From a virus: a stretch of DNA of 25,842 bases. Of this stretch, positions 9,013 to 20,431 are shown one piece after another. The notes under the pieces are model-generated. The model did no database searches and was not told the DNA's origin. It worked only from the letters and a program-made list of their open reading frames with translations. A program made the position numbers and the translations under genes. The stretch lies in IMG/VR virus record IMGVR_UViG_3300017788_000150, positions 1-25,842 of that record; one strand, given 5' to 3'. Within the stretch, counting starts at the first letter, position 1, and each line of letters opens with the position of its first letter.

Positions 9013-10374
9013 ATGTTCCAATCCGAGCATCTGCAGGAAAAGTGGGCACCTATTCTTGAACATAAAGATGCTGAACCCATTCAGGATTCTTACAAGAAAG
9101 CTGTCACCTCAGTCCTGCTAGAAAACCAAGAGCGTTTCCTACGCGAAGAGCGTGGATTCCTCTCAGAAGCAGCACCTACCAACTCACTAGGTGGCGCTGG
9201 TTATACTGGTAGCAGCACAGCAACAGGTCCTGTTGCAGGTTTCGATCCAGTTCTAATCTCACTAATTCGTCGTTCGATGCCTAAGCTTATTGCTTATGAC
9301 ATCTGCGGTGTTCAACCAATGACTGGTCCTACTGGACTCATCTTCGCAATGCGTTCAACTCAAGGCACTGCACGCGATATCGCTGCTGGCGCTACTGAAA
9401 CCTTCTTCAACGAAGTTGATACCGAGCATTCATCTGAGAACAGCGGCAACTCACTTGCTTCAAACACTCAGACTGGTACTAACCCTGGTCTTCTAAATGA
9501 CAGCGGCACCTATACCCAAGGTGGTCAAGGTATGACGACTGCTCAATCAGAAGCACTTGGCGATGGTGCTGGTAACCACTTCCGCGAAATGGGCTTCTCA
9601 ATCGAGAAGGTAACCGTTACCGCTAAGTCACGCGCCCTCAAGGCAGAGTACTCGCTAGAACTAGCACAAGACCTCAAGGCTGTCCATGGTCTTGATGCTG
9701 AAACTGAACTAGCGAACATCCTCTCAACTGAGGTTCTTGCTGAGATCAACCGTGAAGTCGTTCGTACCGTATACCGTATTGCTAAGCCTGGTGCTCAGAA
9801 CAATACTGCTACTGCTGGTATCTTCGACCTCGACGTTGACTCCAACGGTCGCTGGTCCGTAGAGAAGTTCAAGGGTCTACTCTTCCAAATCGAAAGAGAA
9901 GCAAATGCCATCGGTCAACAGACTCGTCGTGGCAAGGGCAACTTCATCATCTGCTCTGCAGACGTTGCAAGTGCTCTAGGCATGGCTGGTGTTCTTGACT
10001 ACACCCCAGGTATCAATGGCAACAATGGTCTTGCTGGTGTTGATGATACTTCCTCAACTCTAGTTGGAACCCTCAACGGTCGCATCAAGGTTTATGTTGA
10101 TCCTTATTCAGCAAACGTATCCAACCGTCACTTCTTCGTGATGGGTTATAAGGGTTCGTCTGCTTATGATGCAGGTCTATTCTATTGCCCATATGTACCT
10201 CTCCAGATGGTACGTGCCGTTGGTCAGGACACCTTCCAACCCAAGATCGGCTTCAAGACCCGCTACGGAATGGTTGCAAACCCATTCGCAGAAGGTCTAA
10301 CCCAGGGTGCTGGTGCTCTCACCGCAAACGCAAACGTATACTACAGACGTGTACTTGTAGACAACCTAATGTGA
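9013..10374 (+). CDS. 23: Major capsid protein (gp23)
   Basis: This HK97-fold hexameric capsid subunit is the most abundant virion protein. The 453-aa product contains the signature DICGVQPMTGPTGLIFAMR and ends YYRRVLVDNLM. The N-terminal about 52 residues form the scaffold-binding propeptide. A gp21 cleavage site is likely after FLSE (residue 52, before AAPTN), in line with the T4 L/I-x-x-E rule in loose form. Codon use is visibly shifted to C-ending codons (ATC, AAC, GAC, TTC, CGC) compared with neighbours such as gp3, as expected for very high expression. The gene has its own late promoter and a terminator at its end. T4 gp23 is 521 aa, and cyanophage versions are shorter, as here. Confidence 0.98.
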   Translation: MFQSEHLQEKWAPILEHKDAEPIQDSYKKAVTSVLLENQERFLREERGFLSEAAPTNSLGGAGYTGSSTATGPVAGFDPVLISLIRRSMPKLIAYDICGVQPMTGPTGLIFAMRSTQGTARDIAAGATETFFNEVDTEHSSENSGNSLASNTQTGTNPGLLNDSGTYTQGGQGMTTAQSEALGDGAGNHFREMGFSIEKVTVTAKSRALKAEYSLELAQDLKAVHGLDAETELANILSTEVLAEINREVVRTVYRIAKPGAQNNTATAGIFDLDVDSNGRWSVEKFKGLLFQIEREANAIGQQTRRGKGNFIICSADVASALGMAGVLDYTPGINGNNGLAGVDDTSSTLVGTLNGRIKVYVDPYSANVSNRHFFVMGYKGSSAYDAGLFYCPYVPLQMVRAVGQDTFQPKIGFKTRYGMVANPFAEGLTQGAGALTANANVYYRRVLVDNLM

Positions 10375-10392
10375 GTCATTCACATTCTTCTG

Positions 10393-10417
10393 GGGACCCT
10401 GAGGGGTCCCTTTTTTT
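10393..10417 (+). terminator. Intrinsic terminator after gene 23
   Basis: A 7-bp GC-rich stem GGGACCC (10393-10399) and GGGTCCC (10404-10410) with loop TGAG is followed at once by seven T. It begins 18 bases after the gene 23 stop and insulates the capsid transcript from genes downstream. This is the clearest terminator in the window. Confidence 0.95.
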
Positions 10418-13428: not shown

Positions 13429-13457
13429 ATTGTACATGTATTTTTTAAAGTTGTCAA
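13429..13457 (-). promoter_or_regulatory. Divergent sigma-70-like promoter facing into the Sm-like gene
   Basis: On the minus strand TTGACA (complement of 13452-13457) is followed by exactly 17 bases and TACAAT (complement of 13429-13434). The -35 is the left arm of the same inverted repeat that carries the -35 of the rightward gp55 promoter. There is no minus-strand gene; any transcript would be antisense to the 3' end of the preceding gene. Confidence 0.45.
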
Positions 13458-13472
13458 GACCCTTGACAACTT
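13448..13472 (+). repeat. 11-bp perfect inverted repeat in gp55 promoter
   Basis: AAGTTGTCAAG (13448-13458) and CTTGACAACTT (13462-13472) are perfect complements around a 3-base centre, ACC. Both arms contain a TTGACA hexamer, one per strand. There is no adequate T-run afterwards, so operator or DNA-structure roles are more likely than termination. Confidence 0.85.
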
Positions 13473-13491
13473 CTGTTGTTAAGATTATAAT
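13463..13491 (+). promoter_or_regulatory. Consensus sigma-70 promoter for gp55 operon
   Basis: TTGACA (13463-13468), 17-base spacer, TATAAT (13486-13491) is a perfect match to the bacterial housekeeping consensus, 21 bases before the gene 55 ATG. It implies strong early transcription by unmodified host RNA polymerase of gp55-47-DUF3110-46. Confidence 0.92.
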
Positions 13492-16985: not shown

Positions 16986-17058
16986 GGGGAATTAGCTCAG
17001 TTGGTAGAGCATCGCCTTTGCAAGGCGGGTGTCAGGAGTTCGAGTCTCCTATTCTCCA
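16986..17058 (+). tRNA. tRNA-Ala, anticodon UGC
   Basis: The full cloverleaf can be drawn. Acceptor GGGGAAT pairs with ATTCTCC with G3:U70, the classic alanine identity pair. D-arm GCTC/GAGC has an AGTTGGTA loop, anticodon stem TCGCC/GGCGG has loop TTTGCAA (anticodon TGC), and T-arm AGGAG/CTCCT has loop TTCGAGT. Discriminator is A73. CCA is not encoded. It begins 2 bases after the gp46 stop, so it is probably processed from the gp46 transcript. UGC reads GCA/GCU codons that are frequent in this AT-leaning genome. Confidence 0.97.
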
Positions 17059-17087
17059 TTCATAATTAATCCTTATCGGTCAACCCC

Positions 17088-17116
17088 TTGACCCCTGCTT
17101 TGCTATGCCCTATATT
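17088..17116 (+). promoter_or_regulatory. Sigma-70 promoter with dyad -35, for VWA-metallopeptidase gene
   Basis: TTGACC (17088-17093), 17-base spacer, TATATT (17111-17116). The -35 is the right arm of an inverted repeat GGTCAA (17078-17083) - CCCC - TTGACC. The sequence ATGCCCTATA before and in the -10 is shared with the promoter at 19257-19285. Start codon at 17140. Confidence 0.82.
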
Positions 17117-17139
17117 AGGTACATACGAAACGAGGTCCG

Positions 17140-19260
17140 ATGGTCAACACCGAAGTCAAAGGCACTCTTGCCAAACTGCTCGCAACCGAGAATCTGAATG
17201 TTGAGCACCGTAAGGTAGAGACTGCTTATTTCGATGTGCAGAACCGTATCCTCTGCCTGCCGATCTGGAAGGATGTTAGCAGCAGTGTGTATGACATGCT
17301 GGTGGGTCATGAAGTGGGTCATGCCCTATATACTCCTCTGGACTACGGTGTGGCAAGTTTAGAGGTGCCTGGGGACATTCTGAACGTGCTGGAGGATGTT
17401 CGTGTTGAGAAACTCATGAAACGTCGTTATCCTGGACTGGCCCGATCTTTCTTTAAAGGGTATAGTGAACTAGATCAGAAAGACTTCTTTGAACTGGAAG
17501 GTAAAGATCTTTCCAAGATGGCTTTGATCGACCGTATCAATGTTCACTACAAAGTTGGAGTGGTTGGTAATCGTACCATTGTGGATTTTGAACGTGATGA
17601 GATGCAGTGGGTTAATCGTGCTGCTGATACTGAAACGTTTGAAGATGTAGTTGAACTGGGTAAGGATCTGGTTGAATATTTGAAACGGGAAATGCAACAA
17701 AAGACCGAAGTTCCTGCAAGTCCTTCTGCTCAATCTGGTCCTGCTTCAGGGCAGAGTGAAGGGCAGAGTGATGATCAACAACCTGGTCAATCTGATCAAG
17801 GTCAAAACTTTGGTGAAGAAGGTGATGAAGAACAACAATCCACCACTGGATCTTCCGATGGTCGTGAAGGTAGTAAAGGTGATGATGTTGATGAACTGAA
17901 ATCTGAAACTTATCGTGCTCTTGCTGAAAAGCAGAAAGATCTTGTTGATAAGAATGCCCGTGACTATCTTTACATTGATATTCCTCAGATCAATCTCAAA
18001 GATACGATTGTTCCCTTTAAAATGATGCTTGAAAGTTTCACTCAATATGTAAATCAGGATCATCGTGGATTTCAAGATGGACGACAAGAATGTGTCAAGT
18101 CTTATCGTGAGTACAAGAAAGATAGTATCAAATCCGTGAACTATCTGGTCAAGGAGTTTGAATGTAAGAAAGCAGCTGATCAGTATGCTCGTTCATCTAC
18201 TTCTCGCACTGGTGTTCTTGATACTGCACGTCTGCACACTTACAAGTTCAGTGATGATGTGTTCAAGAAAGTGACCACCACTCCTGATGGTAAGAATCAC
18301 GGTCTTGTGTTCTATCTTGACTGGTCTGGTTCGATGTCAAATTGTATGGTCAATACGATCAAGCAACTGTATGATCTGATCTGGTTCTGTAAGAAAGTTG
18401 CAATTCCTTTCCGTGTGTACGGTTTCTCCGATGCCTATACCAACGATAGTGTTGCTCCTGGTGTTCCTTCTGAAAATAAAGAGAACTACCTGCACATTGA
18501 TAAAGATTTCCGTTTGCTGGAGTTCTTCTCATCCAAGATGAATGCACAAACTCTTGATACGATGATGGAATACTTCTACGTCAATTGTGAAGGTTTCCGT
18601 AAGAACCATGGTTACAACTATGAATTTTCTCTGTCTGGAACTCCTCTGGTAGAAACCATCGTTACCACCCCTCAAGTTGTTGAAAAATTCAAAAGTGAAG
18701 AGAAAGTCCAGAAAGTTAATGTGATTTATCTTACTGATGGAGAAGCTTGCCATCCTGGGTATAATACTTTTATCAAAGCTTTGAATGAAGTTCATTCTCA
18801 ACCTTTTTATGCTGATCGTATTTGTGTTCTTCGTGATCCCAAATCTCGTTATTCCCGCAAGGTTGAACTCAACAACTATTCACTGACGAATGAGTTTGTA
18901 GATTATATCTCCAATATTGTTGATTATAATCTGCTTGGTTTCCGTCTCTGTAGTAAATCTGAGATTCGTACCATGTGTCGTATTTACGATATGAATTCTG
19001 CTCAGTTTGAGAAACAATGGGAAAAGAATAAGTGTGCTGCAATTCCTAATTGTGGGTTCAAAGAACTTTATCTTCTTCCTTTGCCTAAGACTCAAAATCA
19101 TTATTATCGTTACTGGAATCCTGGTGAAGAAGAATCTGATGATCTTGCAGTCAAAGATCCTTCATCTAAGACTCAATTGACCAGTGCATTTAAGAAACAT
19201 ATGAATGGTAAGATGGTCAATAAGACAATCTTATCGAAGTTTGCGGGTCAAATTGCTTGA
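17140..19260 (+). CDS. HEXXH metallopeptidase with C-terminal VWA domain (CobT/DUF2201-like)
   Basis: The 706-aa product has three parts. Residues 1-100 contain H57-E-V-G-H61 (GHEVGHALYTP), a zinc-peptidase motif, followed by NVLEDVRVEK (about 82-91), whose acidic residues could supply the third ligand. Residues 185-255 are a low-complexity S/G/Q/E/D linker. Residues 385-600 form a VWA domain with MIDAS D394-W-S396-G-S398 and a T-D-G-E at 532-535. HEXXH plus VWA resembles DUF2201/VWA-like metallopeptidases, and acidic linker plus VWA resembles CobT. Such proteins work with MoxR/CobS AAA+ ATPases, and the next gene is exactly that. Substrate is unknown. Leu and Arg codons (CTG, CGT) differ from those favoured in gp46, suggesting a separate origin. 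The GAGG at 17132-17135 supports this start. Confidence 0.85.
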   Translation: MVNTEVKGTLAKLLATENLNVEHRKVETAYFDVQNRILCLPIWKDVSSSVYDMLVGHEVGHALYTPLDYGVASLEVPGDILNVLEDVRVEKLMKRRYPGLARSFFKGYSELDQKDFFELEGKDLSKMALIDRINVHYKVGVVGNRTIVDFERDEMQWVNRAADTETFEDVVELGKDLVEYLKREMQQKTEVPASPSAQSGPASGQSEGQSDDQQPGQSDQGQNFGEEGDEEQQSTTGSSDGREGSKGDDVDELKSETYRALAEKQKDLVDKNARDYLYIDIPQINLKDTIVPFKMMLESFTQYVNQDHRGFQDGRQECVKSYREYKKDSIKSVNYLVKEFECKKAADQYARSSTSRTGVLDTARLHTYKFSDDVFKKVTTTPDGKNHGLVFYLDWSGSMSNCMVNTIKQLYDLIWFCKKVAIPFRVYGFSDAYTNDSVAPGVPSENKENYLHIDKDFRLLEFFSSKMNAQTLDTMMEYFYVNCEGFRKNHGYNYEFSLSGTPLVETIVTTPQVVEKFKSEEKVQKVNVIYLTDGEACHPGYNTFIKALNEVHSQPFYADRICVLRDPKSRYSRKVELNNYSLTNEFVDYISNIVDYNLLGFRLCSKSEIRTMCRIYDMNSAQFEKQWEKNKCAAIPNCGFKELYLLPLPKTQNHYYRYWNPGEEESDDLAVKDPSSKTQLTSAFKKHMNGKMVNKTILSKFAGQIA

Positions 19261-19285
19261 CCTGCAGGGGCATATGCCCTATACT
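19257..19285 (+). promoter_or_regulatory. Sigma-70 promoter with dyad -35, for MoxR/CobS-like gene
   Basis: TTGACC (19257-19262), 17-base spacer, TATACT (19280-19285). As at 17088, the -35 is the right arm of an inverted repeat, GGTCAA (19246-19251) - ATTGC - TTGACC. The spacer holds a perfect 12-bp palindrome GGGCATATGCCC (19268-19279). The -35 overlaps the stop codon of the upstream gene (TGA 19258-19260). Confidence 0.82.
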
Positions 19286-19312
19286 ACTTAAGTATTCAAC
19301 AGACACCCATCC

Positions 19313-20431
19313 ATGATCTCCGTGCACGATCTTCTCATCTCATCTCTGGTTCAACGCTTCGGTCCTACCGTAACTTCAGAATCACTCAAAGTATATTCTG
19401 CTGAGGTGGGTATGCATTATCAGACGATTGCAAACAAACTGAAGAACTATAAAATTGGTCGGGGACTTTGGAACCTGGAACAGGAGGTAGAAAAACTGGA
19501 ACAAATTTATACTCATGCTGCAGTTGTTCCCGATCAGGAACAAGTGTCCTTTATTCCCCAGAAAGATCCTGGTTTTGTCCCGTTCGGGAATTTCTCTGAT
19601 CTGAAGAAGGTTATTCAGTCCAAACAATTTTATCCTGTGTTTATCACTGGCATGTCTGGTAATGGCAAGACGGTGAGTGTAGAACAAGCATGTGCTCAAC
19701 TCAAGCGTGAACTCATTCGGGTAAACATCACTATCGAAACCGACGAAGACGATCTCATCGGTGGGTTCCGTCTTGTGGACGGCAATACTGCTTGGCACAA
19801 CGGTCCTGTGGTTGAGGCTCTTGAACGAGGTGCCGTACTGCTTCTTGATGAAATCGACCTTGCAAGTAACAAGATCCTCTGTCTGCAAAGTGTTCTCGAA
19901 GGTAAAGGTGTTTTCCTGAAAAAAATCGGTAAGTATGTCCGTCCTTCTCATGGTTTCACTGTGGTTGCTACTGCTAACACTAAAGGAAAGGGTTCTGATG
20001 ACGGAAGGTTCATCGGTACGAATGTACTTAATGAAGCATTCCTGGAACGTTTCCCGATCACCTTTGAGCAAGAGTATCCTGCAGAGAAAACCGAAGTAAA
20101 GATTGTTGCTGCGGCCATGGATAATCAGGATCAGGACTTTGCTGAGAAACTTGTTCGTTGGGCACAAGTGATCCGTAAGACCTTCTATGATGGTGGTGTG
20201 GATGAAATCATCAGCACTCGTCGTCTGGTTCACATTGCTAATGCTTACAAGATCTTTGGCAAACGTGACAAGGCAATCCAAGTGTGTGTGAATCGTTTTG
20301 ATTCTGACACCAAACAATCCTTCATGGAACTCTATTCCAAGGTGGATGCTAATGTGAATCCTGATGATGACGATAACGAATCTCCAGAAGAGATGGTTCG
20401 CCGTCATGCTAGTGAATCATATCAGGGTTGA
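19313..20431 (+). CDS. cobS: MoxR/CobS-type AAA+ ATPase
   Basis: The 372-aa product shows Walker A GMSGNGKT (113-120), ETDEDDLIGGF (142-152, typical of MoxR/CobS), Walker B VLLLDEID (175-182), sensor-1 TAN (220-222) and the arginine region LERF (243-247). Cyanomyovirus homologues are usually called CobS, a cobaltochelatase subunit. Here the partner is a metallopeptidase-VWA protein and no CobN is seen, so a MoxR-type chaperone or remodelling role is at least as likely. Residues 20-60 look like a small helical, HTH-like N-terminal domain. No clear ribosome site precedes the ATG (CACCCATCC). It has its own promoter about 28 bases upstream. Confidence 0.87.
   Translation: MISVHDLLISSLVQRFGPTVTSESLKVYSAEVGMHYQTIANKLKNYKIGRGLWNLEQEVEKLEQIYTHAAVVPDQEQVSFIPQKDPGFVPFGNFSDLKKVIQSKQFYPVFITGMSGNGKTVSVEQACAQLKRELIRVNITIETDEDDLIGGFRLVDGNTAWHNGPVVEALERGAVLLLDEIDLASNKILCLQSVLEGKGVFLKKIGKYVRPSHGFTVVATANTKGKGSDDGRFIGTNVLNEAFLERFPITFEQEYPAEKTEVKIVAAAMDNQDQDFAEKLVRWAQVIRKTFYDGGVDEIISTRRLVHIANAYKIFGKRDKAIQVCVNRFDSDTKQSFMELYSKVDANVNPDDDDNESPEEMVRRHASESYQG

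Follow-up and report, generated by a model that had tools for sequence, protein, structure and literature searches.

Does the cobS-like gene that T4-like cyanophages carry, together with the gene beside it, serve vitamin B12 synthesis, or do the two encode a protein-remodelling machine with another client? A 2010 comparison placed cobS among the cyanophage core genes (PMC3037559); it is one of the few extra genes that all T4-like cyanophages compared have in common, and ocean virus surveys routinely count it towards B12 genes. The pair was already called cobST by Liu et al. in 2021 (PMC8651126). If the pair is instead a zinc-site remodelling machine with a different client, B12 gene counts are being misread and a core infection step of very common marine phages has been overlooked. 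Our main reading, to which we assign a probability of roughly 0.55, is that the pair is an ATP-driven protein-remodelling machine of the NorQD/CobST type with what is probably a metal site, and that cobalt chelation is not its dedicated task. What is new is an intact zinc-type site in a CobT-like protein, a motif apparently unweighed in the literature on the pair, and evidence from gene distribution against a tie to CobN.

The stretch of DNA analysed here (the window) is a 25.8-kb virus record in which gene-family annotation reveals a T4-like order of genes. Terminase, sheath, tube and portal genes are followed by 47/46-type recombination genes; a tRNA-Ala (TGC) gene at 16986-17058 lies directly between gene 46 and the VWA/AAA+ pair; and after the pair come a small gene and the sliding clamp. 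A reading of the sequence on its own had described a 706-aa frame with HEVGH, an acidic linker and a VWA MIDAS, followed by a MoxR/CobS-type AAA+ frame; both are present as claimed, with the following features.

17088..17116, plus strand: sigma70-like promoter TTGACC-17-TATATT, 5' of the VWA/zincin gene (sequence match)
17140..19260, plus strand: most likely a CobT/NorD-like VWA protein with zincin-type N-domain, 706 aa (phrog_459 'peptidase', E 9.5e-252)
17308..17322, plus strand: HEVGH, residues 57-61 (H57, E58 and H61 invariant in 77/77 homologues)
17392..17409, plus strand: EDVRVE, residues 85-90, with E85 the candidate third zinc ligand; shared with CobT LExxRxE (homologue alignment)
17710..17883, plus strand: disordered acidic/Gln/Ser linker, residues about 191-248 (pLDDT <50)
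18292..19089, plus strand: VWA domain core, about residues 385-650 (best structural neighbour NorD VWA, Z 15.4)
18319..18333, plus strand: MIDAS DxSxS, D394, S396 and S398 (77/77 homologues)
19257..19285, plus strand: sigma70-like promoter TTGACC-17-TATACT, 5' of the AAA+ gene (sequence match)
19313..20431, plus strand: CobS-like MoxR AAA+ ATPase, 372 aa (phrog_249 'porphyrin biosynthesis', E 1.6e-136)
19649..19672, plus strand: Walker A GMSGNGKT, residues 113-120 (G113 and S115-T120 invariant in the ATPase alignment)
19832..19858, plus strand: Walker B region AVLLLDEID, residues 174-182 (mostly invariant in the ATPase alignment)

The gene pair is real, conserved and already catalogued, since phrog_459 and phrog_249 are known cyanophage core families whose members in cyanophages and pelagiphages have been named cobT and cobS (PMC8651126, PMC7029224); the window pair is a somewhat divergent member. 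A survey of co-occurrence, which had been proposed as a check, gave equal numbers of phage records for the two families (365 Synechococcus, 61 Cyanophage and 24 Prochlorococcus), and in nearly all viral contigs with room the two genes are adjacent or close, a linkage that is strong though not always immediate. The claim that the cassette includes no other gene holds in the window; in relatives the gap is usually 13-80 nt but reaches 1-3.7 kb. The partner thus linked to the ATPase is a VWA protein with a MIDAS (DxSxS...T/S...D in 77/77), as is characteristic of MoxR AAA+/VWA pairs. A single contig with full room, IMGVR_UViG_3300042475_001995, has a peptidase homologue with neither CobS nor a Walker A motif in the 4 kb downstream of position 2382. 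In the unverified record of Pseudoalteromonas phage XG4 (PP712099, 4881-8434) the machine is spread over four ORFs, namely VWA, zincin domain, Walker-A half and Walker-B half; the two AAA+ halves join at the helix-2/pore region with stop and start codons adjacent, an arrangement that resembles a split-gene version. Kayvirus gp48 was rejected as another candidate pair, its neighbour gp47 having neither HExxH nor MIDAS.

The two genes were also said to have their own promoters of nearly identical design. Both sites are real, belonging to four TTGAC-17-TATA promoter-like sites in the window (13463, 17088, 19257 and 20428) where 0.44 are expected for the pattern TTGACN-N16-TATANT; those at 13463 and 20428 stand before other genes, however, so the promoters are not special to the pair and we rejected promoter pairing as a distinguishing feature. 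Among relatives, a 10/12 promoter match is found 5' of cobS in 31% (control 2%) and 5' of the peptidase gene in 12% (control 1%). Elsewhere in the window, a terminator-like hairpin at 10392-10411 lies just 3' of the gene ending at 10374, and the site at 13463, a perfect TTGACA-17-TATAAT, overlaps an 11-pair hairpin at 13448-13491.

The genomic position of the pair bears on the suggestion that it acts as a virion-assembly chaperone, as has been put forward for the MoxR/VWA pair p618/p892 of Acidianus two-tailed virus. That precedent places a viral AAA+/VWA pair in tail development, as cited in PMC7911831, and a virion role would suit the core status of the genes in these phages. In the window and in Pelagibacter phage HTVC008M, however, the pair is flanked by recombination genes (46/47) on one side and clamp/clamp-loader genes on the other, and in XG4 it adjoins clamp-loader-type genes, so that its neighbours are not tail or head genes; moreover, cobS is missing from the non-cyanophage T4-like genomes compared in 2010 although their virions are of the same kind (PMC3037559). 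We regard this chaperone role as distinctly improbable.

In the 706-aa protein, H57, E58, H61, E85, D86, R88 and E90 are identical in 77/77 homologues from viral contigs, as are D394, S396, S398 and D533 of the MIDAS, with position 501 being T or S (T501 in the window); because this identity persists down to ~37% overall identity, neither HEVGH nor MIDAS is a chance match. An HExxH with a downstream acidic ligand candidate, conserved throughout, constitutes a zincin motif, and on this pattern of conservation the N-domain probably carries a metal site. Among the CobT-like partners of phages beyond this clade, those of Rhizobium phage V1VFA-S, Gordonia phage Newt, Vibrio phage ICP2 and Pseudoalteromonas phage XG4 retain the HExxH, whereas that of Stenotrophomonas phage ANB28 has REVST in its place. 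In a fold search with a model of the 706-aa protein, the matches listed were VWA domains (NorD VWA, Z 15.4; MDN1 MIDAS, Z 14.5; generic VWA domains, about 11); no CobT structure was among the rows listed, which weighs on neither side. No Pfam family matched the protein at E up to 1, CobT, CobT_C and peptidase families included, and a PDB sequence search with the partner profile, CobT entries included, likewise returned no match at E up to 1. Family labels are unstable: the homologue in Synechococcus phage S-CREM1 (OP535465, 155935-158067) is labelled 'RNA binding protein'.

Such a motif could mean that the pair is an ATP-coupled metalloprotease, whose HExxH domain would cleave a host or phage protein presented by the AAA+/VWA part. 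The invariance of H57, E58, H61 and E85 and the retention of HExxH in the Rhizobium, Gordonia, Pseudoalteromonas and Vibrio phage relatives agree with this, and a purely structural zinc would not need the conserved catalytic-type glutamate E58. However, the Stenotrophomonas phage relative has lost the motif and the cellular CobTs considered below do not have it, yet they preserve the architecture and the pairing; the machine as such can therefore do without it. The lack of a Pfam peptidase match and of an FtsH-like ring-protease fusion also weighs against proteolysis, which we consider rather doubtful.

The sequence-only reading had taken the peptidase motif as an argument against CobT, but this poses a false choice: the 706-aa protein and CobT probably have homologous N-domains, and CobT, like NorD, shows the same succession of N-domain, acidic linker and VWA, so the motif fails to separate the 706-aa protein from CobT. 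Two phage proteins act as intermediates for this probable homology: those of the Rhizobium and Stenotrophomonas phages have VWA domains that match CobT_C (E 8e-36 and 8e-30), and their N-domains match the Pfam CobT N-domain model at E 0.006 and 1.3e-4, respectively, both under the curated cut-off. Profile comparison relates the cyanophage N-domain to these two phage N-domains (P 2.8e-11), and these in turn to a diverse alignment of cellular CobTs (P 2.1e-5), whereas the direct comparison of cyanophage and cellular CobT N-domains gives P 1-3e-3; reversed controls gave at least 0.1. Support for the link came from the diverse CobT alignment and the phage intermediates only, a narrow CobT alignment giving no significant match; the homology thus appears well supported through intermediates and weak directly. 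The common core pairs phage EDVRVE...YPG with CobT LExxRxE...G, and when the Rhizobium phage protein is aligned with CobT, the HExxH lies opposite the ADAxAL segment of CobT. In 18 divergent cellular CobTs, the first 250 residues contain no HExxH. Given the bridged homology and this absence, the 706-aa protein is most likely a CobT-like protein with a zinc-type site that is missing in the cellular CobTs examined.

The pairs of ICP2, Newt, V1VFA-S and ANB28 thus resemble the window pair in joining an AAA+ to a VWA protein, most with HExxH kept, and differ in a VWA domain closer to CobT_C (E 8e-36 to 3e-7) and in hosts unrelated to cyanobacteria. Cellular CobST (CobT PF06213/PF11775, CobS TIGR01650) likewise combines an AAA+ gene with an N-domain/acidic linker/VWA-MIDAS partner and shares the LExxRxE...G motif; the phage pair, unlike it, has the HExxH, scores far under the curated cut-offs, comes with no phage CobN, and places the VWA gene ahead of the AAA+ gene, the reverse of the fetched cellular loci, where the AAA+ gene (cobS) precedes cobT. 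The closest solved folds are those of NorQ/NorD (nitric oxide reductase iron insertion) and CbbQ/CbbO (Rubisco activase), the AAA+ model matching CbbQ2 at Z 22.5 and NorQ at Z 21.4, but sequence identity is low (10-28%) and the targets of these systems are not near the phage pair. With AAA_5 and CbbQ_C both above the Pfam cut-off in the 372-aa ATPase, these fold matches and the linkage support the proposed MoxR AAA+/VWA machine.

A different role was proposed by Liu et al. (PMC8651126): the phage pair supplies missing CobST, which joins host CobN to make up a cobaltochelatase, and the resulting rise in pseudocobalamin serves the host's class II ribonucleotide reductase or methionine synthase. 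The ATPase profile does score best on true CobS among solved MoxR-type sequences with a single AAA+ domain (100.6 bits, vs 53.9 on NorQ), and the partner is CobT-like. On the other hand, the ATPase reaches 82.3 bits against the CobS equivalog TIGR01650, whose curated cut-off is 558.55, the partner profile has no match to PDB CobT sequences, and a review doubts homology to bacterial cobS (PMC5083919).

The distribution of CobN speaks to the same proposal. The general expectation that cyanobacteria do without CobNST is correct only in part: CobN exceeds the curated cut-off in 88/101 Cyanobiaceae genomes, but CobT is found in 0/101, and the phage CobS profile in 1/101, the single match being in the centre genome, at the locus that the phage query had fetched and that was judged a phage contig (0/100 in the others). 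The host lineage sampled thus offers no homologue of the pair that would mark it as a host-derived auxiliary gene. The combination of host CobN without CobT favours completion of the chelatase by the phage, and with CobN in 88/101 genomes help to the chelatase may occur in cyanobacteria, a point against our main reading there. As had been claimed, no CobN accompanies the phage pair: 2/50,697 phage records match CobN, neither of them a cyanophage. An intact full-length pair is also kept, in a similar gene order, in Pelagibacter phage HTVC008M, whose SAR11 host clade is reported neither to need nor to make B12 and to be without the B12 pathway (PMC8552899), SAR11's lack of CobN being taken from that report.

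Cells themselves frequently have CobT without CobN. In a sample of 106 alphaproteobacterial genomes, CobT (77 genomes) was about twice as common as CobN over the cut-off (36 genomes), and 36 of the 77 CobT-bearing genomes had no CobN match at all; because some of the genomes are incomplete, part of these absences may reflect gaps, but the assemblies concerned did yield CobT, and 13 of the 36 measure 3 Mb or more. The control genome of Caulobacter vibrioides has CobT and CobS and no CobN. This suggests a CobN-independent role of cellular CobST and makes it less safe to conclude, from the label CobS or CobT, that a protein takes part in cobalt chelation. We consider the proposal of Liu et al. 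unlikely as an account of the pair, whose conserved job would not be CobN cobalt chelation, at least not family-wide. The doubt that the sequence-only reading cast on the CobS label is supported by these occurrences apart from CobN and by scores under the CobS cut-off, and the extra zinc-type site adds to the doubt about the vitamin-gene label.

How, then, would the remodelling machine of our main reading work? The pair has NorQD-like parts, an unstructured linker included, and by analogy with the NorQD mechanism (PMC13036017, PMC9976466) the CobS-like ATPase would form a hexameric ring with the VWA domain of the partner seated in its pore. The MIDAS may then bind an acidic residue of the client protein while the N-domain, tethered by the flexible acidic linker, would grip the client at a second place, so that ATP hydrolysis would turn the VWA domain and the client would be opened or reshaped; the N-domain would keep a zincin-type metal site (HExxH plus E). 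CobN is a less likely client than phage proteins or host proteins that are widely conserved.

A broader and quite tentative idea is that CobT-type proteins descend from a zinc metallopeptidase-like adaptor, that the zinc site was retained in the phages, where the machine serves as an ATP-driven protease or for metal insertion on a non-B12 target, and that CobN became a partner later, by specialisation of a broader CobST machine which in many cells also occurs without CobN. Because CobST is frequent in cells that have no CobN match, whether the machine has another client can also be tested in laboratory bacteria, Caulobacter among them.

A tree of the AAA+ proteins, informative only on the separation of the cyano/pelagiphage clade from cellular CobS, places that clade (98/99) apart from the cellular sequences, with long branches for ICP2, Gordonia and Acinetobacter. 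Cyanophage-type cobS loci also occur in assemblies labelled Nonlabens, Planctomycetota, Euryarchaeota, Parcubacteria and others; these are most likely binned phage contigs or contamination.
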